From Candidatus Naiadarchaeum limnaeum (GTDB lineage: Archaea > Undinarchaeota > Undinarchaeia > Undinarchaeales > Naiadarchaeaceae), in contig DVAB01000010.1 of assembly GCA_014189685.1 (NCBI GenBank), positions 1 to 15,202 of the forward strand: a stretch of DNA of 15,202 nucleotides, in the 5' to 3' direction. Below are positions 1 to 11,979 of the stretch, piece by piece. Each line of letters opens with the position of its first letter. Within the stretch, counting starts at the first letter, position 1. The notes beneath the pieces were generated by a model, which was not told where the DNA came from, ran no database searches, and saw only the letters and a list, made by a program, of their open reading frames with translations. Position numbers and translations under genes: made by a program.

Positions 1-183
1 CTTTTTTGAAAATTTTTCGCCAAGATAAAAAAGTGCAAGCGAAATTGCAATAATCAAAACTGCTTTCCGGCTTGGGAAATAATTTGCTGAAAAAACAAGG
101 AAAAGCGTGCCTAAAATCAGCAGGGTGCTTGGCTTTAGGGCAATGCTCTGCTTGAATTCAGAGGAAAGATTTTGGAGATTCAT
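1..183 (-). CDS. Partial membrane protein (N-terminal 61 residues)
   Basis: This open frame begins with ATG at 183-181 and runs off the left edge, so only the N-terminus is visible. It starts MNLQNLSSEF and contains two hydrophobic segments, roughly residues 20-36 (around STLLILGTLFLVFSANYF) and 40-57 (around AVLIIAISLALFYLGEKF), separated by a short PSRK turn. This looks like a helical hairpin in the membrane. Its start codon overlaps the stop codon of the upstream gene by one base (TAATG), which points to translational coupling and a shared operon with the 271-aa protein. I do not recognise the family, and no catalytic motif can be seen in the visible part. Confidence 0.6.
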   Translation of the reverse strand, partial: MNLQNLSSEFKQSIALKPSTLLILGTLFLVFSANYFPSRKAVLIIAISLALFYLGEKFSKK

Positions 184-998
184 TATTGCACTGGCTTTGT
201 TATGATTTTGAACAGGAAAATTTTTAATCCGGTGTTTTCAGCCTTGCCCTGCAGGACATCCCTGCCTTCGGGCGGAATATTTTTTGTGCGAATAAAAATT
301 TCAAGCCTGCCTGTGGCAATTTTTTCAACATCCAGCCCCTCTCTGGAAAGAAGCCTGCCTGCATTTTCAAGGTCATTGAGGTTTGCGTTGTTTAACTTTA
401 AGATTAATCCGCGCTCAAACAGGACATATTCATTTCCCGGGCGCAGGGCGTTGTTCAGTTCCTGGATAATTGTGGGCATAACTGTTTTTGCAGAATCAAT
501 TGTAATATCCCCGCTTATTCCAACCTCGGAAATATTTTCGCGGGGAACAAGCGAGGCTGAAAATTTATCAAGCTTATCAGTTAAAGAAGAAACATCCTTG
601 TACATCAGCGGCTCAAGCCCGGCTTTTACAACTGCCCTGTGGTTCGGGGCTAAGCTCAGTGAAACTGCCTGGATATCGTCAATGCTTGAGAATGGCCCGC
701 CAACAGTTACTTCCCTTCCATTCAGCAAAATTGTAAAACTTGCCAGCTCGGCATTTAGTATTAAACCTTCAGAATCAATTTTTTCATTGTTATCAGTCCA
801 TTTCCCGGAAAATTTTAAATTTACTGAAAATCCCTGCTCCTGCATTGCGGCATAAACATAAACAGCGCGATAAACATTCGGCCCGCTGAAATTAAGTGTC
901 ATTTCCTCTGAAATGTTAAAGCGCAGCGCAATCGCTACAATAAGGGCTACAGCAATAACTACAATCAATAAATTTACAACATTCTTTTTTCCCACCAT
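183..998 (-). CDS. Membrane-anchored hypothetical protein, 271 aa
   Basis: The protein has one N-terminal hydrophobic helix (about residues 8-26, around VNLLIVVIAVALIVAIAL) after a short MVGKKN basic start. That pattern is an uncleaved signal anchor with the rest outside the cell. The remaining 245 residues look like soluble alpha/beta sequence with alternating hydrophobic strands (for example FTILLNGREVTV, and LEIFIRTKNI near the C-terminus). There are no cysteines and no catalytic signature that I recognise, so the function is unknown. A TATA-like box at 1021-1030 lies about 27 nt upstream of the ATG at 998, so the transcript is probably leaderless. The stop codon overlaps the next start (TAATG), so it is very likely co-translated with the partial membrane protein at the window edge. 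Confidence 0.75.
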   Translation of the reverse strand: MVGKKNVVNLLIVVIAVALIVAIALRFNISEEMTLNFSGPNVYRAVYVYAAMQEQGFSVNLKFSGKWTDNNEKIDSEGLILNAELASFTILLNGREVTVGGPFSSIDDIQAVSLSLAPNHRAVVKAGLEPLMYKDVSSLTDKLDKFSASLVPRENISEVGISGDITIDSAKTVMPTIIQELNNALRPGNEYVLFERGLILKLNNANLNDLENAGRLLSREGLDVEKIATGRLEIFIRTKNIPPEGRDVLQGKAENTGLKIFLFKIITKPVQ

Positions 999-1732: not shown

Positions 1733-2239
1733 ATGGATTTTTTCGCACACATCTTTTGGACCGCAATAATCTTCAGGAATCAAAGTCCTTTATGGATTCC
1801 GCTTTTATTTGGAGCAATTCCAGATTCTACTTCGTGGGGAGTTTGGTTTGTACAAATAATAGTTACAGGAAAATTCAGGAAGACTTTTAAAAATTTCAGG
1901 AAGCGGCCGCCGGATTTCAGCAAGCTGCCAAAATGGGTTTGGACTTTGTATGGGGCGAGCCACAGCATTTTTTCATTTGCGGTTGTATTTGGGACTTTAT
2001 CTTTAATAACAGGAAAAATTTTTATTCCAGTGCTTGCATGGCTTGTGCACATCTTATTGGATCTTCCAACGCACAGCAGGGAGTTTTTAGGAACTCCGTT
2101 TTTGTGGCCACTCTCAGATTGGAAATTCCCAGGATTTACTTGGGGAAAATTATGGTTTATTTTATTAAATTGGGGCGCGATAATATTTTTTATAATTTAT
2201 TTGTTTGGAATAAGAGGTGAGACTTTAATTTTGTTTTAA
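1733..2239 (+). CDS. YdjM/DUF457-like membrane-bound putative metal-dependent hydrolase
   Basis: This is a 168-aa integral membrane protein with about four hydrophobic segments (near residues 8-30, 35-45, 76-108 and 140-160). It carries the histidine/aspartate pattern of the YdjM/YbcI (DUF457) family: DFFAH with His6 at the N-terminus, GAIPD with Asp31, ASHS with His77, then HILLDLPTHS giving His106, Asp110 and His114, followed by the TPFLWPLS stretch at 121-128. These residues sit near membrane boundaries and probably bind metal. Family members are called putative metal-dependent hydrolases from motif alone, and their substrate is unknown. The start at 1733 fits a leaderless transcript. The gene stands alone between tRNA-Gly and an acetyltransferase. 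Confidence 0.8.
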   Translation: MDFFAHIFWTAIIFRNQSPLWIPLLFGAIPDSTSWGVWFVQIIVTGKFRKTFKNFRKRPPDFSKLPKWVWTLYGASHSIFSFAVVFGTLSLITGKIFIPVLAWLVHILLDLPTHSREFLGTPFLWPLSDWKFPGFTWGKLWFILLNWGAIIFFIIYLFGIRGETLILF

Positions 2240-2246
2240 GACAACC

Positions 2247-2262
2247 ACTAGTTATTTAAGTT
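2247..2262 (+). promoter_or_regulatory. TATA-like promoter of the 177-aa acetyltransferase
   Basis: GTTATTTAAG at 2251-2260 is centred about 27 bp before the ATG at 2283. This is the spacing expected for a leaderless archaeal transcript, and there is no Shine-Dalgarno match just before the ATG. Confidence 0.45.
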
Positions 2263-2282
2263 TTCAAGAATACTGTTTAATT

Positions 2283-2816
2283 ATGAAAGGTTTCACGCTT
2301 AGGCGATTGGGAGGGAGTGATCTGAGGGTACTTGAGAAAATTGCATTTGAGATTTTTTATCCATCTTCATTAGTTGCAAGAGAAGTTATGCAAAGTTACA
2401 GGCTTTATTTTAAAAAAGGGCATGGAAACAGGAAAATAGAAAAAAGTGTGGATGATTGGATAAGCATTGAGTACTATGTTTTGGTTGAGGACAAAACAAA
2501 AAGAATTGTTGGCATAACAGGACTTTACAGAATAAACTGGGGTTCTCCGGATTCTTTTTGGCTTGGGTGGTTTGGGGTAGATAAAGCTTTTAGGGGCCGC
2601 GGGTTGGGAACAGAACTATTGGCAATGACAGAGCGAATTGCAAAAGAAAGAGGGGCAAAATATTTTTGCATTGAGAGCTCGGATTTTCCTGCTAACCAGC
2701 ATGCGGCTAAACTTTACACAGAAATGGATTATAAAAAATTCGGACCGATTCCAAATTATTGGCCTGGCTTCAGAAATGAACGATATGGCTTGGTAATTTT
2801 TATTAAAAAGCTCTAG
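2283..2816 (+). CDS. GNAT-family N-acetyltransferase, 177 aa
   Basis: The protein fits the GCN5-related N-acetyltransferase fold. A strand WLGWFGVDKAFR (93-104) runs into the acetyl-CoA pyrophosphate loop RGRGLGT at 104-110 (consensus Q/RxxGxG/A), followed by the helix ELLAMTERIAKERGAKYF. The C-terminal part has the usual N...A..LY...Y pattern (NQHAAKLYTEMDYKKFG, 138-153). It probably transfers acetyl from acetyl-CoA to a small molecule or protein amine. The substrate cannot be read from the sequence. The final TAG overlaps the TAG of the convergent gene within a CTAG palindrome. A second GNAT-like protein lies next to it, but the two are dissimilar in length and sequence, so a recent tandem duplication is unlikely. 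Confidence 0.87.
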   Translation: MKGFTLRRLGGSDLRVLEKIAFEIFYPSSLVAREVMQSYRLYFKKGHGNRKIEKSVDDWISIEYYVLVEDKTKRIVGITGLYRINWGSPDSFWLGWFGVDKAFRGRGLGTELLAMTERIAKERGAKYFCIESSDFPANQHAAKLYTEMDYKKFGPIPNYWPGFRNERYGLVIFIKKL

Positions 2817-3649
2817 CCTGAGAATGCCTTAATTCTGGATGTGGCGCCTTTTGCTTTATGAACTGAATACAGCAACTTCACTTCTCCCTTTGATTTTATT
2901 TCACTGAGCATTCTTATTGATTCTGGCTCTTTATCAGGGTTAACTTCAATTCCAAACTCCAGAAATTTTCTAAGGATTACTGAATATTCATCTGCTGGAA
3001 TGCTCATGCTCTTTTGCCAGTGTTTGTACTCAGGCCTGAACATTTGCATCAAATAGCGAACAGCCTCCCCCTCTTCCCCTGGCTTTATTGGCTGAGCATA
3101 ACCAAAATCAGCCTCAAAAAAATGGAGGTTAAACCAAAAAACAAGCCTGTGTCTTGGGTCTATAGTATCTTCTTCAATTTGCTCGCGAGTCATTTTAGTT
3201 GGATCGTTGACTTCTATTAAAGTTCCGCCATAGTTTCTGTGAAAAATTTCTTTAGCTATGTGTTCCATTTCAACTATGGCTTTTTGGACTAGGATTGAAC
3301 CCAGCCCATGCCTGAAAAAATCTTTCGCAGACACGACATACCAAATAATTCCAAAAGCGGTATTTCGAGTTGCTGCAATTGTTTCTGTTATTGCAAATCC
3401 TACAATTCCTGCCTTTTTTGATTTTATTGCAATTACTTTTACTAAATGTCCCTCATTTATGCTTTCCTTTCCATATTTATCGCTGGTATATTCTGCAATC
3501 CATTCTTTTGAGTCCCTTTCGCTGGGGTCAGGAAAGGCATCTACATAGATTTTATAAAAATTTTCAAAATCAGGGGTATTTGGTTTTATTGCAATTATTT
3601 CGACTATGCCCAAATCAGTTAAGCGTTTCCAGAATTTTGCGAGCGACAT
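2813..3649 (-). CDS. GNAT-like acetyltransferase, 278 aa
   Basis: The N-terminal half resembles a GNAT domain: strands around LVKVIAIKSKKAGIVGFAITETI (69-91) and FGIIWYVVSAKDF (99-111) lead to RHGLGSILVQKAI at 113-125. That is a good match to the acetyl-CoA loop (RxxGxG/A-like, here R113-H-G-L-G117). Later, LHFFEADFGYAQP fits the C-terminal strand of the fold. The last 90 residues (from about 190) are outside the usual GNAT length and form a predicted helical/strand extension that I do not recognise. The substrate is unknown. The divergent start at 3649 lies about 29 bp from a TATA-like tract at 3674-3683, again leaderless. It could be a helper domain fusion. I am fairly sure of the fold and not of the function. 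Confidence 0.72.
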   Translation of the reverse strand: MSLAKFWKRLTDLGIVEIIAIKPNTPDFENFYKIYVDAFPDPSERDSKEWIAEYTSDKYGKESINEGHLVKVIAIKSKKAGIVGFAITETIAATRNTAFGIIWYVVSAKDFFRHGLGSILVQKAIVEMEHIAKEIFHRNYGGTLIEVNDPTKMTREQIEEDTIDPRHRLVFWFNLHFFEADFGYAQPIKPGEEGEAVRYLMQMFRPEYKHWQKSMSIPADEYSVILRKFLEFGIEVNPDKEPESIRMLSEIKSKGEVKLLYSVHKAKGATSRIKAFSG

Positions 3650-4164: not shown

Positions 4165-4182
4165 AAATAAAAGGTTTTATTT
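4165..4182. terminator. Bidirectional AT-rich hairpin terminator between convergent genes
   Basis: AAATAAAA (4165-4172) and TTTTATTT (4175-4182) form a perfect inverted repeat with a GG centre. It lies just after the DUF192 stop and overlaps the stop of the opposite gene. Transcripts from either side end in a U-rich arm, which fits archaeal termination at T-runs. The hairpin itself may be incidental. Confidence 0.45.
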
Positions 4183-7100
4183 TGTAGTGGTTGGCTTCAT
4201 TGTAACTCGGCTCAGTTCAGTTGCGTCCATGTATGGAATGTCTTTGTAAATTTTCACAACACCGCCAACTTTTATCAAATCCCCGACTTCAGTTGTTGTG
4301 TAATAGGGGTATCTTACGTGCAATCTTTCGCCGCTTGTATCTGCGATCAGGAAAACTTTTCCTTTCTTAGTATCTGTTATTGATTTCACAGCTCCTGCAA
4401 GCCTTACTCCGCCTGCGAATTTTGCAGGATTTCGCTTTACTTCTCCTATAGAAATTATTCTAAAGAACATCCACCATATGAAAAATCCCCCAAGAGATGC
4501 TGCTACTGCGACTCCTACTAAAATAACAATGCCAATTAGGCTTGTGAAAGCTGCTATGATTACAGCAGCAGGGTTTATTGAACGAGCAACTTCAATATCA
4601 GCAACAAATTTTGAGATGTCTGTTGACACCTGATCCGCTTTTGATTTAGCATCGTCATAAGCGCCTGAATCAAAGCTTGCCCTTGACTGCTTAATTGTAC
4701 CGTTTATGGATTTCAGAGTCGTTTCAAACTGGGAAACATTTGCGACTGAGCCTTTAATCAAGGTAAAGTTTTTCTCTAAATCTGCAAATATTTTTTCAAG
4801 AGAGGTTAAGCTATTGTTCAGGGCAGCAATTGTTGTGGTTGTCCAAACTTGAGTAATAGTTAGATTCATTCCGCGCTCGGCTATTGCTAAGGAATCTTTA
4901 TCTTTTGCGCGCCATGTTCCGGCGTATGTTTTTGAGAGAGCAGAGCTTGGAAGTATAATGCGAACATTATATACGACTGTCTCTCCGCTTGAAAGATCTT
5001 CTGTGGCCAAGCCTGTTGTTGAGACGTTTATCCTATACCAAGTGCTTGATATTTCATTATTTTTTGATGCTATAATTAGGCCAACATCCTCCAATGCACG
5101 CAAACCAGTGTTTTTTACAGTAACTTTTACAAGTTTTGTTTCACCCTGGGCCATTGTTAGCTTTCTGTCGTATTCTGTGATTACGAGCTGATAATTACCA
5201 GCGCCCTCGCCTCCACCACCACCGCCTGTTCCGCCGCCACCCCCATCTGTGACATTTGCACCTGCGGCAACATATACATCTAGATGAGTCGAGTTTGTTC
5301 CGTTTGCGCCATGGGAATCCAAAATCCATATGTCTGCTGTGCGTCTGATTGAGCTGCTTTCTGTGGGAGTCAGTGTTTTTGAGAATGCGCCGCTTATGCT
5401 TATATTGCTGTATCCTATGCTGTGCAAATAAGAAGTTGCGCTGCTAATGTAAAATGAAGCGTTTCCACATTGGCTGCATCCGCCAAGTGCAGTTCCATTG
5501 TGCGCATAGGACGCTGTTCCTGCTATTGTAATTGCTGTTCCGCTTGTTACATTTTGATTCGCGTTACTCCAGAAACTTCCGCTGTTATTTCCAGTAAGGT
5601 TTATGCGCGGCAGCATAGTAAAATTAATTGCACAGGACGAACTTGAGCATTCGCTCACATTCACGGTGTAATTGCTACTTGGATAAGATGCATTTGCAAG
5701 TTGCGTGTAATTTCCAGAAGATACATTGATTGTATAGACTCCAAATGGAACATCAATTGTTGCAATTCCCGCGGCAGATGTATTTGCTGTAAGGTTAAAG
5801 CTGCCATTTGTTAGGGAAACAAGAGCGTTTTGCACAGTATAACCAGCTGCAGCGCCGCTTCCTTTTACACTAATTGTAACAGTTGAAAGAGTCAAGTTAA
5901 TAGTTACATTTCTGTTTAAGAATAAACCGTTATTTGTAACAATAACGCTTGTGTTTGCTGTTGTTGCGTTTCCCTTTGTCGCATTAAACCAGTAATTTGA
6001 ATAATTAGCAGTAACATTTGTACCCATTGTTGCATTGTAATAGACTATAAAGCTTGTCAGATTTATTCTGGGGAAAGTTCCGCTTGAGTTTGTCGTATAA
6101 GTGCGCAACTCGGTTGATAAATTCGCGGTGCTGTTTATTACAACTGTTGCGCCCTGAACAAAACTGCTGTTTGAATTGTTTGACCTTACATAAACATCAA
6201 CATACCATTTTTCAGTTAAGTTTGCGGTATTGTCCCCATAAAAAGTAATGTTTGTGTTTGTCCAACTTGGGTTAACAAGAGTAACATTCGAGTTGTTAGA
6301 ACTTACATTGAAATAGAAAAGAGAGGCGTTGGGGAATCCTGTGGAACCCATTGAGCGCGCGTTTGTAAAGGATGAGTCAACAAATATCGCGCGCGAATTG
6401 GATTTTGGAAATACGCCAAATGTACTATTATCGATTGAAATGTTTAAAAAGGTAAGATTTGAATTTGTCAAAACAATTCCAAATGTTTGATTTGAGAGCG
6501 TAACATTTGTTATGGAAGCACCATTTGAATTTGTTATATTCAGACCGGCATCTGTTGTTGTGTCTGCTGTGAGCTTAATTGATATGTTTGTAATAGTTGG
6601 AGAAGAATTCCAAACCAAAATTCCTGCAGGATTGTTGAAAAATGTAGAATTTTTTATTGTTGGCGAGCCGCTGGAAATATTGAAAGCATAACCAAGCGAA
6701 TTGTTAATTGTTGAGTTTGAAAATTCAAAGGAGCTTGTTTGGATATTTATTCCATTGCTTCCTGTAAAGTTTTGCAGCCCACTAATAGAACTATTATTTA
6801 TAAAGCCGGAACTTCCACCATAATAATAAAAGCTGTATCCAAGCGCGGTTCCGTTTGCTGAGAAGATTGTTGAGCCATTATCAATTTTTAAAGTTCCTCC
6901 GCTTTCAACTGCGACTCCAAGTGTTTCGGTTATGCTTCCGTTAAAAGAGATATTTATGTCCTGCAAATGAAGTGTCCCCCCGGTTCTAATAGTAATATTA
7001 CTGATATTTTCTACTTTCATCGGCCCGAGGCAGAGAGTTGAATTGGCTATAATCCAAGTTCTATTAGTTGCGGCGTTAGAAGAATAGTTAGCATAATTAG

Positions 7101-7194
7101 TACAGTTCCTAAGTGATTGCGCATTTGCGCCAAAAGCACTTATTGAGAGAAAAATTACAGCAAATATTACAATGATTAGAAACTTTTTATTCAT
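4177..7194 (-). CDS. Giant surface protein: beta-helix ectodomain, TM helix, cytoplasmic OB-fold
   Basis: This 1005-aa protein opens with a clear signal peptide (1-25, ending near FGANA). Residues about 30-330 are short repeating turns rich in N, S, T and I (for example SGSPTIKNSTFFNNPAGILVWNSSPTITNISI), typical of a right-handed parallel beta-helix. Dozens of N-x-S/T sequons imply heavy N-glycosylation. About 330-655 looks like Ig or carboxypeptidase-regulatory modules. A Gly hinge follows near 660, then a CARDB/NEW3-like beta domain (about 675-785, KVTVKNTGLRALEDVGL), a helical coiled-coil-like stretch (786-871) and a transmembrane helix (872-911). The C-terminal 94 residues resemble an OB-fold (GEVKRNPAKFAGGVRLAGAV...GKVFLIADTSGERLHVRY...VGDLIKVGGVVKI) and should be cytoplasmic. 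A GGTGG Shine-Dalgarno-like motif precedes the ATG by six bases. A role in adhesion or cell-surface sensing is inference. Confidence 0.85.
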   Translation of the reverse strand: MNKKFLIIVIFAVIFLSISAFGANAQSLRNCTNYANYSSNAATNRTWIIANSTLCLGPMKVENISNITIRTGGTLHLQDINISFNGSITETLGVAVESGGTLKIDNGSTIFSANGTALGYSFYYYGGSSGFINNSSISGLQNFTGSNGINIQTSSFEFSNSTINNSLGYAFNISSGSPTIKNSTFFNNPAGILVWNSSPTITNISIKLTADTTTDAGLNITNSNGASITNVTLSNQTFGIVLTNSNLTFLNISIDNSTFGVFPKSNSRAIFVDSSFTNARSMGSTGFPNASLFYFNVSSNNSNVTLVNPSWTNTNITFYGDNTANLTEKWYVDVYVRSNNSNSSFVQGATVVINSTANLSTELRTYTTNSSGTFPRINLTSFIVYYNATMGTNVTANYSNYWFNATKGNATTANTSVIVTNNGLFLNRNVTINLTLSTVTISVKGSGAAAGYTVQNALVSLTNGSFNLTANTSAAGIATIDVPFGVYTINVSSGNYTQLANASYPSSNYTVNVSECSSSSCAINFTMLPRINLTGNNSGSFWSNANQNVTSGTAITIAGTASYAHNGTALGGCSQCGNASFYISSATSYLHSIGYSNISISGAFSKTLTPTESSSIRRTADIWILDSHGANGTNSTHLDVYVAAGANVTDGGGGGTGGGGGGEGAGNYQLVITEYDRKLTMAQGETKLVKVTVKNTGLRALEDVGLIIASKNNEISSTWYRINVSTTGLATEDLSSGETVVYNVRIILPSSALSKTYAGTWRAKDKDSLAIAERGMNLTITQVWTTTTIAALNNSLTSLEKIFADLEKNFTLIKGSVANVSQFETTLKSINGTIKQSRASFDSGAYDDAKSKADQVSTDISKFVADIEVARSINPAAVIIAAFTSLIGIVILVGVAVAASLGGFFIWWMFFRIISIGEVKRNPAKFAGGVRLAGAVKSITDTKKGKVFLIADTSGERLHVRYPYYTTTEVGDLIKVGGVVKIYKDIPYMDATELSRVTMKPTTTK

Positions 7195-7289: not shown

Positions 7290-7394
7290 ATTTTTTATCC
7301 ATATGGATAATAATTCAAAATCGATATGCAGCAAAAATAAAAACTAGATTTGTATGGAAATTTTAGCGATTTTTTATCCATATAGATAATAATT
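7290..7394. repeat. Two direct copies of a 26-bp palindrome-containing repeat
   Basis: Copy one (7290-7315) and copy two (7369-7394) are identical except at one base and lie 79 bp apart. Each begins ATTTTTTATCC and ends AATAATT. Copy one contains the perfect 16-bp palindrome TTATCCATATGGATAA (7295-7310). In copy two (7374-7389) one base breaks the symmetry. Both sit between the protease stop codon and the beta-helix promoter, the nearer one about 54 bp upstream of the TATA box. An operator for a dimeric regulator is the simplest reading. Confidence 0.6.
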
Positions 7395-10300
7395 AAACAG
7401 TTTCCTGCCCTTTTTTCTGAGCAAAAAGTTTTCTATGGCCTCCTTTTAAACGAACAAACAAAACTAAAGCAGCAATTAAAACAACAATTGCAACAGCAAT
7501 AACAACAATATATGTTGGAATTGCAAATTCTTCTTTCTCTTTTGGCGCAGCAGTTGTGATGTTTGTTATAATTTTCTCCTCTATAGAAATATTTTCTTCC
7601 TTAACTTCAGCAACAGCTCCAATTTCTGCCTGTAAAAGAGTTGTTATTGTAAAGAACGAAAAGCTCACATTTTTTGCACTGTAAATATATTGTTCAGAGG
7701 TTTCTCCAACACGCTTTATTGGCAAAGCTTTCCATTCTTTTTCAAATTCTCTTAAAACTATGTTATCAGGGAAATATTTTTTCTGCGCAAGCCAGCTTTT
7801 GTTGACAACAAATTGCAGTTCAGTATTTTTAATAGAGGAAGATTTGAAATTAATTGGATCAATGCTAAGATGGGCAAAAGCGTCTGCTTTTATATCATGT
7901 GTTTGGCCCGGCCGCTCATTGAAACGTATTACTCTTACAATTGCACCTCTCAGTTCATCAATAGTATCAAACTTAATCTGCCCAATGTAGTGCTGCTCTG
8001 TTTTTTCGAAATTTTTCAAAACAAATTGCCCCTTTTGGACATTTCCAATTAAAAGATTTTCAGTCGGAAGCGCAATTCCACCACCGCCCCCACCACCTCC
8101 TCCGCCTCCACCACCTCCGCTGCCATCTCCTCCGTCTCCTCCAGAAGTTATTGTAAGCGTTCGATTTGTTCCAAAAGCAGAATTCGCAGAAGTATCATTT
8201 GCCATGCAATTCCAAATATAGGTTCCAGTTGCCAAAGTTTTTGAAAATGTTGTTGAGTTATCCACTCCGCTCAAATTTTTTGTTTCATTTAAGCTCCAGT
8301 TTCCTGTAAAGTCTGCCCACAGTGAAATGTTGCTCAGGGCATAGTTATCAGTTGCAGAACAATTAAAAGTTTGCGAAGTTGTAGAAGTGCTTGTTGAATT
8401 TGCAGGCGAGTTTAAAGAAATTGTTGGATTACTCGTATCTGCGGTTGTGCTCAGAGATGTATTTGTCCAGTTTCCAATATTTCCTGCATTATCCACAGCG
8501 CGCAGCTGGAATGTGTAAGAGGTGCTTGCGGTTAATCCTGTCTGATTATTATAATTGGTCGGAGCAGAGACATTTGTCTGGAAAACGTTATTCCTCCATA
8601 CTTCTGTGTGATTAATTCCAGATGTATCTGTAGGCAAAGTCCAAGTAACATTTATCCATCCTGCATCGCGCGTTGAAAAAGTAACTCCAGAAACATTTGC
8701 AGGAATTGCCGCATCAATTATAATTTGGTTTATTGCGCTGCTAACATTTGAAATGTTATCTGAAACATTTACCCAGAAATTATAAATTCCGTCTGAGAGC
8801 GCAGTTGAAGTTAAATTAGTTGGCGTGTTGTTTTGCGCGCTTTCATTGCTCGCGCGCGTTGTTCCATTGAAATAAAGAATTGCATGCCCAGTTGTGTTAT
8901 CCGCATCTGTGAAATTAAATGTTATTGTTGAAGTATTGTCATTTGTAGAAGTGTTATTTGATGATGGGCTCATAATATAAACAACTGGTTGCGGAGGAGG
9001 AAGAACATTGCATTTTAGTGTTAGATTAGTTCCTCCTTGGGTGCTGTTGCTTGAATTAACTAAATATAAGGCCTCATAAACTCCTACTGGATTCGATCCT
9101 GTTGGTGAACATGTAAATTGCACTGTTGGAGTTGAGTTAACTACAAGATCCCCAAGAGTTGTTGCGTTCTGGGTTAAAATAGCAGTTCCGTTCCCAGAAA
9201 TTTCAGAAACATTACTGTTGTTATTTTGTGTAAATGAGAGGACAAGAGCTGTTGTTGTGTTGCTCGAGCTTTGGGTTGCATTAATTTCAATTAAAGTTGT
9301 ATTCCAAGTTATATTATCTAAAAACATAGCATTGCTTGAAACCAAAGAAAAATTTTGTCTTGCTCCAACAGCAACGCTTGCATTTACTGCAACCGTCCAA
9401 ATTCCTGCGGGAACAGAATCATTGATTAAAACTTGCTCTAAATTATCAATTGTGTTTGTCTGGTTTCTGCTTGCATTTAAAATCCTAGTTGCATTGCTCA
9501 GCGTCCATGGAAACATTCTTGTTCCATTGGGGGCAATCACTAAAAGATCTAAATCATTCACAAGTTCTTTTGCTGCTGTCACAGTCCCAAGAACATCATC
9601 CCATGCAAGCGTAACTCTAAATTCGCTCTGTCCTTCTGGAACTCTCACATTAAATGTGCGATTTGCGTTGTTTGTTATATTATTTTCATGAATGACATCT
9701 GTTGCATTTGTGGAATTATCGCGCAGAATTAAATCAATTGCTTTTGTTGCGTTTATTAAACCATATCCTGTTGCAAAATCAGGGCCTGTATTATTGAGAT
9801 CCCTTGCTGACTGGACTAAAATTATTTTTGCAGTTGCGGGCTTGAAAGATTGATTGCTATGTGTATTTCTATAAGCCTGCATCATCAACCCAATTGTTCC
9901 TGAAACGCCAGGAGCTGCCATTGATGTCCCTGTTTTTACACCATATTGATTACTTGTTGACTCTGTGCTCGTTACAGCATCTCCATGAGCAACAATCTCT
10001 GGTTTTAATCTTCCGTCTCTTGTTGGACCCCAGCTTGGAAAATATAAATTATTTGGCCACACCTCCGGATCTGGCCAGAAATAATTGCTTATTGCCCCAA
10101 CTGTAATAACATTTTTTGCAGTTCCGCCTGGGCCTGGAACACTCCCATACCCATCATTATCTGCGCCCCCAGGAGTTCCAAGGCAACCAGTAATGTTAGA
10201 GCGCTCGTTGCCAGCTGCAAAAACAACTATTAATTCTTTCCCACCTGCAATAACGCTAGAGTTTCCATAGATAATATTATCATACGCTTGTGTAAAACTA

Positions 10301-11370
10301 TCATATTTCCCTTCTAAAGAACACGAACCTGCTGTATTGTATGCCCAAGAATTTTGGCTTAGTACTGCTTCGCTCACAACAGAGAGATTTGATTCATTAT
10401 AGAGCTCATTTGACCCAGAATCGGGCCATTCATAAGTTATGTATGTTGCATTTGTTGCCATTCCCCTCCACTGAGCAGCTGCGCCACTTTGATTTATGCT
10501 ATTAGCCCCATCTCCCAACATAGTTCCTGCAACATGTGTAGAATGCGATGTTGTTGAACCTCCCTGATCCCCCTGAGTTTTTCTTGAATTAAAGTCAACA
10601 TGATTTCCATAACCAGAATCCCATTCAGCAAGTGTAACTCCGCTTCCATTTAAATTATAAGGAGAGGTTTGAACTGTATTAACACCTGCCCCAGCCCTTG
10701 ATGCATTATTAGATACAGCAAGCGGTGCTGGAATTGCCTCGACCCACTGCACAATATCTTCAGTTGCAAAATCATTTAATTTATTTTCAGGAAGAACAAT
10801 TTTCCAAACATCGCCAACTAATGGGGGCTCATAATTAATTGCATAATTTTTTAATATATTTTCAACCTCAGCATCATTTGCATCATCAAAAAACATTACT
10901 GAAAAATTTGCAGTCCCATCAGAATTTTTTGTATAATTTGGAATTCCAAAGCTCAATAAATCTGGATCAATTTTATCCTGTGCATTCAAAGAATCAATAA
11001 AAGTCACATCAGCATTTTGCGCGGCTGCGTTGAAATTTTTAACAGAGGCGAGCCATGCTTTATCAGGAATATAATTTAATAATAAAATCCCATCTTCCGC
11101 TAATTGTTTTCTTTCTCCCTCACTTGGAATATGGTCCAATTGAATTAAAGCATGTGTTTTTCCTTTTTGCTGCGCAATTAGAGAGATTTCATCTTGCGCT
11201 TGCGAAGAAAATTTTTCCACAGGAACAAATTGCCTTGACTTTAGAAAAATTTTTTCTGCTTTTGCAGACTTGGAATTTTCATTTTGCGCAAAAATATTTA
11301 TAGAGAAGATACTTGCGGATAAAATAAAAATTATTAATAGTGCCAAAATAATTTCTGCAGTGCGACCCAT
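7393..11370 (-). CDS. Kp43-type subtilisin (S8) with Ig/FN3 modules, PGF-pre-PGF domain and C-terminal membrane anchor
   Basis: This 1325-aa protein starts with a signal peptide (1-28). A propeptide-like region precedes the S8 catalytic domain (about 236-565), where the triad is visible: Asp251 in AEWDSG, His276 in SHSTHVAG, Ser483 in GTSMAAPG, with oxyanion Asn388 in FAAGN. The usual HGTH is HSTH here. Residues 575-700 match the Kp43 jelly-roll (RVTLAWDD, NDLDLLVIAPNGT). Ig-like and FN3-like modules follow (FN3 near 890-975, TYTFQLRAVDNAGN), all rich in N-x-S/T sequons. A polyglycine hinge (1077-1098) leads to a PGF-pre-PGF-like domain (1099-1245) and a transmembrane helix (1287-1306) with a basic tail (RLKGGHRKLFAQKK). 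No PGF-CTERM tripartite sorting end is present, so it should stay membrane anchored with the protease outside. Substrate and processing are unknown. A TATA-like box about 28 bp upstream fits a leaderless start. Confidence 0.92.
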   Translation of the reverse strand: MGRTAEIILALLIIFILSASIFSINIFAQNENSKSAKAEKIFLKSRQFVPVEKFSSQAQDEISLIAQQKGKTHALIQLDHIPSEGERKQLAEDGILLLNYIPDKAWLASVKNFNAAAQNADVTFIDSLNAQDKIDPDLLSFGIPNYTKNSDGTANFSVMFFDDANDAEVENILKNYAINYEPPLVGDVWKIVLPENKLNDFATEDIVQWVEAIPAPLAVSNNASRAGAGVNTVQTSPYNLNGSGVTLAEWDSGYGNHVDFNSRKTQGDQGGSTTSHSTHVAGTMLGDGANSINQSGAAAQWRGMATNATYITYEWPDSGSNELYNESNLSVVSEAVLSQNSWAYNTAGSCSLEGKYDSFTQAYDNIIYGNSSVIAGGKELIVVFAAGNERSNITGCLGTPGGADNDGYGSVPGPGGTAKNVITVGAISNYFWPDPEVWPNNLYFPSWGPTRDGRLKPEIVAHGDAVTSTESTSNQYGVKTGTSMAAPGVSGTIGLMMQAYRNTHSNQSFKPATAKIILVQSARDLNNTGPDFATGYGLINATKAIDLILRDNSTNATDVIHENNITNNANRTFNVRVPEGQSEFRVTLAWDDVLGTVTAAKELVNDLDLLVIAPNGTRMFPWTLSNATRILNASRNQTNTIDNLEQVLINDSVPAGIWTVAVNASVAVGARQNFSLVSSNAMFLDNITWNTTLIEINATQSSSNTTTALVLSFTQNNNSNVSEISGNGTAILTQNATTLGDLVVNSTPTVQFTCSPTGSNPVGVYEALYLVNSSNSTQGGTNLTLKCNVLPPPQPVVYIMSPSSNNTSTNDNTSTITFNFTDADNTTGHAILYFNGTTRASNESAQNNTPTNLTSTALSDGIYNFWVNVSDNISNVSSAINQIIIDAAIPANVSGVTFSTRDAGWINVTWTLPTDTSGINHTEVWRNNVFQTNVSAPTNYNNQTGLTASTSYTFQLRAVDNAGNIGNWTNTSLSTTADTSNPTISLNSPANSTSTSTTSQTFNCSATDNYALSNISLWADFTGNWSLNETKNLSGVDNSTTFSKTLATGTYIWNCMANDTSANSAFGTNRTLTITSGGDGGDGSGGGGGGGGGGGGGGIALPTENLLIGNVQKGQFVLKNFEKTEQHYIGQIKFDTIDELRGAIVRVIRFNERPGQTHDIKADAFAHLSIDPINFKSSSIKNTELQFVVNKSWLAQKKYFPDNIVLREFEKEWKALPIKRVGETSEQYIYSAKNVSFSFFTITTLLQAEIGAVAEVKEENISIEEKIITNITTAAPKEKEEFAIPTYIVVIAVAIVVLIAALVLFVRLKGGHRKLFAQKKGQETV
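8077..8142 (-). repeat. GGN codon tract encoding the polyglycine hinge
   Basis: Twenty-two codons, nearly all GGN, encode a run with 14 uninterrupted glycines just before the PGF-pre-PGF domain. The third bases vary, so the tract is held by selection on the protein and is not a simple trinucleotide expansion, though it remains liable to slippage or misassembly. Confidence 0.7.
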
Positions 11371-11450: not shown

Positions 11451-11580
11451 TATTTTGGAAAAAAAGAATTATTTAGCCTATTTTTTAGGAATGAAAGAAT
11501 TAGAAATCTTTAAAGTTGTTAAGTTTCCAGCCAGGCTTTAAGTAATTTTCCAGACAGAAGAAAGATTGGAAAAATATTCT

Positions 11581-11588
11581 GAGGTGAT
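11581..11588 (+). promoter_or_regulatory. Strong Shine-Dalgarno site that fixes the trmB start
   Basis: GAGGTGAT is fully complementary to the archaeal 16S 3' end (ATCACCTC) and ends four bases before the ATG at 11593. A further in-frame ATG at 11566 lies upstream of this site and would put it inside the coding region, so 11593 is the likely start. A possible TATA element, GGCTTTAAG, lies at 11534-11542. Confidence 0.8.
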
Positions 11589-11592
11589 TGAA

Positions 11593-11979
11593 ATGAAAGA
11601 ACATGTGGAATACCTCCAAAATCTTGGACTGACCGAGTATCAATCAAGAGCGCTGATAGTGTTGTTTGCAAAAAGAGAATTGAGCGCAGAGGAAATCTGC
11701 AAATTCAGCGGAATTCCTCAAACAAAAATTTATCAAGTGATGAACACGCTGCGCGACAAAGAACTGATTGAGTGCACAATTAGCAAGCCGCGCATCTACA
11801 GGTGCGCTGAGCCTTTAGAAGTGCTGAACACTCTAATACAAAAAGTGATGAAACGTTTAGAGTGGTTGAAAAATGCAAAGCGCGATCAGATAAAGAAAAT
11901 AAAAGCAATTGATTTGCAAGTTGTAACAAAGGAAAAAGTTCATCCAATGTTCAATACAGATTTGGAAATTGAGGCCTAG
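11593..11979 (+). CDS. TrmB-family transcriptional regulator, HTH domain only
   Basis: From the chosen start the protein is 128 aa. Residues 1-70 are a TrmB-type winged helix: LQNLGLTEYQSRALIVLFAKRELSAEEICKFSGIPQTKIYQVMNTLRDKELIE has the family's LGLTxYExxxY-like opening and the recognition helix at GIPQTKIYQVMNTL. A basic wing (ISKPRIYRC) follows. Residues 75-115 form a helix likely to dimerise as a coiled coil (VLNTLIQKVMKRLEWLKNAKRDQIKKIKAI). Full-length TrmB proteins carry a C-terminal sugar-binding domain, which is absent here, so any ligand sensing must differ. It is divergent from the subtilisin gene with a 222-bp gap, so it may control that gene or itself. This link is inference. Confidence 0.87.
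   Translation: MKEHVEYLQNLGLTEYQSRALIVLFAKRELSAEEICKFSGIPQTKIYQVMNTLRDKELIECTISKPRIYRCAEPLEVLNTLIQKVMKRLEWLKNAKRDQIKKIKAIDLQVVTKEKVHPMFNTDLEIEA

Follow-up and report, generated by a model that had tools for sequence, protein, structure and literature searches.

Why would a large surface protein end, on the inner side of the membrane, in an OB-fold, and what could such a domain bind there? The question is raised by a gene at 4177-7194 (minus strand) in a window of 15,202 nucleotides, which is contig C44 of a 0.98-Mb archaeal MAG that is 98% complete. An earlier note made from the letters alone had described the product as a surface beta-helix protein with a cytoplasmic OB-fold tail.

Domain architecture of the surface protein

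The open reading frame is intact and encodes 1005 amino acids. From the N-terminus to the C-terminus it comprises the following features:

7117-7194, minus strand: signal peptide, residues 1-26 (MNKKFLIIVIFAVIFLSISAFGANA|QS), from hydropathy and sequence, with a predicted cleavage site
6325-7101, minus strand: beta-helix ectodomain, residues ~32-290, from Pfam Beta_helix/Pect-lyase/NosD matches and alignment
5245-6237, minus strand: beta-sandwich-type region, residues ~320-650, from a CarboxypepD_reg match in L010 and alignment, the rest by eye
5197-5247, minus strand: Gly-rich linker, residues 650-666, from the sequence, present in relatives too
4855-5196, minus strand: NEW3 (NPCBM_assoc) domain, residues 667-780, from PF10633 in relatives and Foldseek
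4579-4848, minus strand: helical (coiled-coil-like) stalk, residues 783-872, from AlphaFold helices
4462-4569, minus strand: transmembrane (TM) region, residues 876-911, from hydropathy, with a single TM at the same place in relatives
4180-4461, minus strand: OB-fold tail, predicted to be cytoplasmic, residues 912-1005, from AlphaFold, Foldseek, VIA-align and Pfam

Alignment revealed equivalent signal sequences in the relatives L010, L007 and L008. The beta-helix ectodomain is rich in N-X-S/T sequons, and a Cys pair close to its N-terminus is conserved in the relatives. The beta-helix claimed for this part by the earlier note was borne out by Pfam Beta_helix matches in two relatives (best E 3e-8) and by weaker matches of the window ectodomain to Pect-lyase (2e-5) and NosD (1e-3), both below the gathering cut-off, while a PDB sequence search with the beta-helix returned chance-level matches only. 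In L007, L008 and L010 the region corresponding to residues ~320-650 contains extra material in the alignment. The ectodomains of these three carry an extra repeat region, absent from the window protein, that resembles an alpha/alpha toroid by eye. PF10633 scored above its cut-off in three relatives (L007, L009 and L010), and the Foldseek matches of the NEW3 region were GH123/sialidase beta-sandwich domains. We are highly confident of the overall architecture, that is, a beta-helix surface protein with NEW3 domain and helical stalk, one TM and a cytoplasmic OB-fold. Computation supports its fold and order of domains, its conservation across the phylum, the purifying selection on it and its topology.

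Orientation in the membrane

Hydropathy of the whole protein showed a signal sequence at residues 5-23 and one internal hydrophobic region at ~875-911. Because a signal sequence is followed by a single later TM, the tail is predicted to lie in the cytoplasm whether the signal is cleaved or not. The distribution of sequons is consistent with this placement. The window protein has 69 sequons in 882 ectodomain residues and none in 93 tail residues. Six homologues together have 363 N-X-S/T sequons in 5,227 ectodomain residues (1.8-7.8 per 100 residues) and none in 560 tail residues, a count over related sequences in which Asn is nearly absent from the tails and two of the six proteins are cut short by the end of a contig or an assembly break. 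The ectodomain is probably N-glycosylated, and an STT3/AglB oligosaccharyltransferase is encoded in the same genome. The inside location given in the earlier note thus agrees with the signal sequence, the one TM and the lack of a sequon in any tail. That residues 875-911 instead form a helical hairpin with both ends extracellular, leaving the OB to bind oligosaccharide or extracellular DNA, is the least probable of all readings considered: the stretch is long for one helix (37 residues) and exported OB proteins exist in archaea, but every relative has a single TM of 22-28 residues at the stalk-tail junction, basic residues follow the TM, and the six tails are free of the sequons that are dense outside.

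One exported or membrane-anchored OB-fold protein of 185 amino acids is encoded in the window's own genome (L042:2133-2687, plus strand). The five other genomes of Undinarchaeota gave no match to it.

Fold and family of the tail

AlphaFold modelled the tail alone as a five-stranded OB barrel (pLDDT 87.7, pTM 0.77) with strands at positions 22-34, 37-43, 49-54, 65-75 and 78-89 of the 97-residue model, and a run that included the stalk and the TM agreed with it. The C-terminal OB-fold that the earlier note had proposed was therefore recovered over the last 93-94 residues. Of the two motifs taken there as strand starts, VGDLIKVGG does begin strand 4, whereas FLIAD ends strand 2. A Foldseek search of the PDB with the tail had STN1, RPA32, PolD DP1 and aminoacyl-tRNA synthetase anticodon domains among the matches listed, and the leading ones were mostly nucleic-acid OBs. 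With VIA-align, the best Z was 13.5, obtained with STN1 (rmsd 2.2, 92 aligned), followed by AspRS/AsnRS anticodon domains (12.5-13), the archaeal RPA domain 3e0e (12.9), RPA32 (12.8) and PolD DP1 (12.3). For the RPA32/STN1 class the values were 12-13.5 at rmsd 2.1-2.4 over ~92 residues, and the Z-scores to RPA, STN1 and aminoacyl-tRNA synthetase domains amount to a tie.

At the sequence level, the tail of L010 exceeded the gathering cut-off of PF01336 (28.8 bits; cut-off 27), whereas those of L007 (22.9), L009 (14.8) and the window protein (12.9) remained below it. A PDB sequence search with the tail alone found a single match, to an immunoglobulin (E 0.66), and the best E in a PDB profile search was 0.15, a similarity too weak to point to a single OB family. 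RPA-like, DP1-like and TM-OB classes had tied best-domain scores of ~16-19 bits, so no exact OB subfamily was assigned. By predicted fold and family the tail is a nucleic-acid-type OB with a putative ligand.

The OB domains of RPA32 and STN1 belong to the same class and are among the best structural matches. However, these proteins are soluble and have neither ectodomain nor TM. Winged-helix domains follow the OB in RPA32 and STN1, whereas the tail protein lacks such a region and ends ~10 residues past strand 5. The NfeD family also places an OB-fold after transmembrane segments, but these are several instead of one, and NfeD acts with stomatin/ClpP-type partners. No NfeD was among the matches listed in a Pfam search of the tail with E up to 10.

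Distribution and conservation

Among the genomes searched, the OB tail was confined to Undinarchaeota, where it occurs throughout the phylum as a single copy. Each of the six Undinarchaeota genomes, which represent four genera, carries one copy. The absences reported for this phylum are soft, as five of its six MAGs are 75-86% complete. A frameshift, misassembly or chance fusion was ruled out, since the six MAGs share the same stalk-TM-OB fusion without an internal stop at the match. The earlier note had envisaged the tail on other ectodomains elsewhere. None was found, and no tail match reached a comparable score in 388 other archaeal genomes. Weak matches in other archaea (E 1e-4 to 1e-3) were RPA-like, PolD DP1-like, RecJ/DHH-like and exported or TM-OB proteins, and no relative was found among viral contigs.

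The relatives are 51-56% identical to the window protein over the tail including the TM and 56-59% without most of the TM, compared with ~50% in the NEW3 region and ~30% in most of the ectodomain. Hence the tail is more conserved than the ectodomain between families. Comparison within one genus showed purifying selection on the tail (dN/dS 0.04-0.10), with a constraint no greater than that on the rest of the protein. The tail alignment contains 37 invariant positions. They include K944, G945, K946 and F948 in loop 1-2 and strand 2 as well as H959, V960, R961, Y962, Y964 and Y965 in strand 3 and just beyond. In all six tails the net charge is positive (+3 to +10).

A widespread stalk with exchangeable tails

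The novelty of the protein is its tail, as many archaeal surface proteins combine the NEW3-helical-TM stalk with a tail of another kind. When archaeal genomes were searched with a profile built from NEW3, stalk, TM and OB, 70 of 297 gave matches, including 64 of the 291 outside Undinarchaeota, where the matches span the stalk with E down to 5e-23. Like the window protein, such proteins combine a large ectodomain and a stalk with a single C-terminal TM and a cytoplasmic tail. Their tails, however, are usually, though not by strict definition, short and basic or helical. We inspected the C-termini of 30 stalk proteins outside the phylum and of one paralogue from the same genome (L078 and L081 had no usable C-terminus). 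A helical SHOCT-like hairpin forms the end of about half of them, and most others have a short basic tail. The OB profile gave no score with any inspected tail, and none of the 30 outside-phylum C-termini has an OB. As the stalk is widespread and the OB was found only in Undinarchaeota among the genomes searched, the OB was fitted onto a common archaeal stalk, most economically by a single gain on the inner end in the ancestor of the phylum. Archaeal NEW3-stalk surface proteins thus swap cytoplasmic tails, comprising helical hairpins, basic tails, one zinc-finger motif and the OB, and this exchange offers a handle on tail function.

A cytoplasmic hairpin of a form like LLExExKEGIIsxxAYxELkkRNxEKL recurs at the end of many archaeal stalk proteins, as in L050, L051, L057, L060, L068 and L069. 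Against Pfam these hairpin tails matched SHOCT only, and weakly (E 0.016). The protein L064:3-1268 (plus strand) of another archaeon is a NEW3-stalk surface protein whose long basic cytoplasmic tail has a C2H2 zinc-finger motif at its end (CGICGKDFRNIHELELHRKYSH).

In a literature search that covered mainly open-access papers, we found no description of a surface protein with a cytoplasmic OB, and the statement of the earlier note that no system with this layout has been described was not contradicted there. S-layer candidates in Undinarchaeota have been reported in a review (PMC12175726); our analysis gave no link between them and the gene at 4177-7194.

Genomic context

Two neighbours of the gene are of interest:

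7393-11370, minus strand: surface subtilase with a PGF-pre-PGF domain and a C-terminal TM, directly upstream, from Pfam/NCBIfam
11566-11979, plus strand: TrmB-type regulator (PF01978), divergent from the surface genes

In L010, too, a PGF-pre-PGF protein lies upstream of the stalk-OB gene. According to the ORF maps, the TrmB-type regulator occupies the same position in L007, L008 and L011, and beyond it lies a gene for an eIF-2B-related isomerase in these three and, by eye, in the window. This arrangement suggests that the surface genes are co-regulated; the neighbours do not identify the ligand of the OB. The window also contains a gene at 183-998 (minus strand) whose membrane-anchored product has a TM at the N-terminus and partially matches the TrmB effector domain (PF11495, E 3e-7).

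Putative ligands of the OB-fold

The reading we favour, tentatively and at somewhat less than even odds, is that the OB binds nucleic acid or nucleoprotein at the inner face of the membrane. A secreted, N-glycosylated beta-helix would be held off the membrane by the NEW3 domain and the helical stalk, and after a single crossing the protein would end in a cytoplasmic OB of the PF01336 (tRNA_anti/RPA32-like) type. This OB could bind ssDNA, RNA or nucleoprotein beside the membrane, and the surface molecule might then be anchored to, positioned by or reporting to a cytoplasmic partner. We prefer this reading because of the fold and family of the tail, its net positive charge and the invariant basic and aromatic residues on strands 2-3. 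OB-folds usually contact their ligand at loop 1-2 and strands 2-3, and the invariant residues of K944-F948 and H959-Y965 would lie at this face, judging from strand alternation. It is further favoured by the PF01336 hit of L010, by the predominance of nucleic-acid OBs among the leading structural matches, by the RPA-, DP1- and RecJ/DHH-like and membrane OB proteins among the weakly similar archaeal sequences, and by a tail conserved above the ectodomain between families and under purifying selection within a genus. Moreover, L064, with its zinc-finger motif, is another case of a stalk protein whose inner end carries a nucleic-acid-type module. Counting against it are the tied Z-scores, the weak family similarity and the absence of extra constraint on the tail within the genus. 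In addition, PF01336 includes OBs that mainly bind proteins, and the mostly short basic or helical tails of other stalk proteins need not bind nucleic acid. An OB at the cytoplasmic end of a surface protein is an unusual wiring of surface and interior. Single-copy and phylum-wide in probably host-dependent archaea, it is a testable candidate for a surface-to-interior link. A bolder version, which we consider rather unlikely as it stands, holds that Undinarchaeota couple an adhesin-like surface glycoprotein to their own cytoplasmic ssDNA or RNA, tethering the chromosome or transcripts at contact sites or receiving DNA from partner cells.

Just behind nucleic-acid binding, and nearly as likely, we rank protein docking: it is possible that the OB, by pairing as in RPA14/32 or STN1/TEN1, connects the surface protein with a scaffold or an enzyme in the cytoplasm, in place of the helical hairpin tails. 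The STN1-TEN1 and RPA14/32 heterodimers are among the closest solved folds, the coiled-coil-like tails of many homologous stalks are of a kind that usually binds proteins, and a single OB alone often binds nucleic acid weakly. On the other hand, no candidate partner was seen, no OB gene adjoins, and the invariant basic and aromatic residues occupy the usual ligand strands. It is improbable that the OB is a passive stop or retention domain without a ligand, kept after one capture in the ancestor of the phylum, since 37 positions are invariant over four genera and identity between families exceeds that of the ectodomain, even though short basic tails suffice for other stalk proteins.

Possible relation to DNA uptake

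Equally improbable is a role in DNA uptake, in which ssDNA entering by a TctA-like permease would be received by the OB and the ectodomain would collect DNA or partner cells on the outside of the cell. Natural transformation of Methanococcus maripaludis requires both the single-TM OB protein MMJJ_13020 and the TctA-like permease MMJJ_13030 (PMC10133366), and it has been proposed that Undinarchaeota use DNA from outside by means of pili (PMC7414124). All six Undinarchaeota genomes encode one TctA, and a stand-alone TM-OB partner is clear in only two of them, a shortage that is soft at the completeness of these MAGs. However, the sole TctA match of the window's genome is on contig C50, away from the gene, and genome G001 has both a stand-alone TM-OB protein and the OB tail, which excludes a simple replacement of the transformation partner by the tail. 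Proteins of the MMJJ_13020 type resemble the tail protein in being tethered by one TM and in having a nucleic-acid-type OB. Unlike it, they are small, lack an ectodomain and adjoin TctA, and with their N-terminal TM the OB is probably outside, whereas in the tail protein the OB follows a C-terminal TM and a large ectodomain.

Single-TM OB proteins adjacent to TctA were observed in three archaea, one of them a member of Undinarchaeota (L026:140-1111 with 1108-2334; L029:1441-1773 with 284-1444; L092:3050-3433 with 1817-3046), those of L026 and L029 being weakly matched by the tail profile. By analogy, these archaea may carry a DNA-uptake pair like MMJJ_13020/13030.
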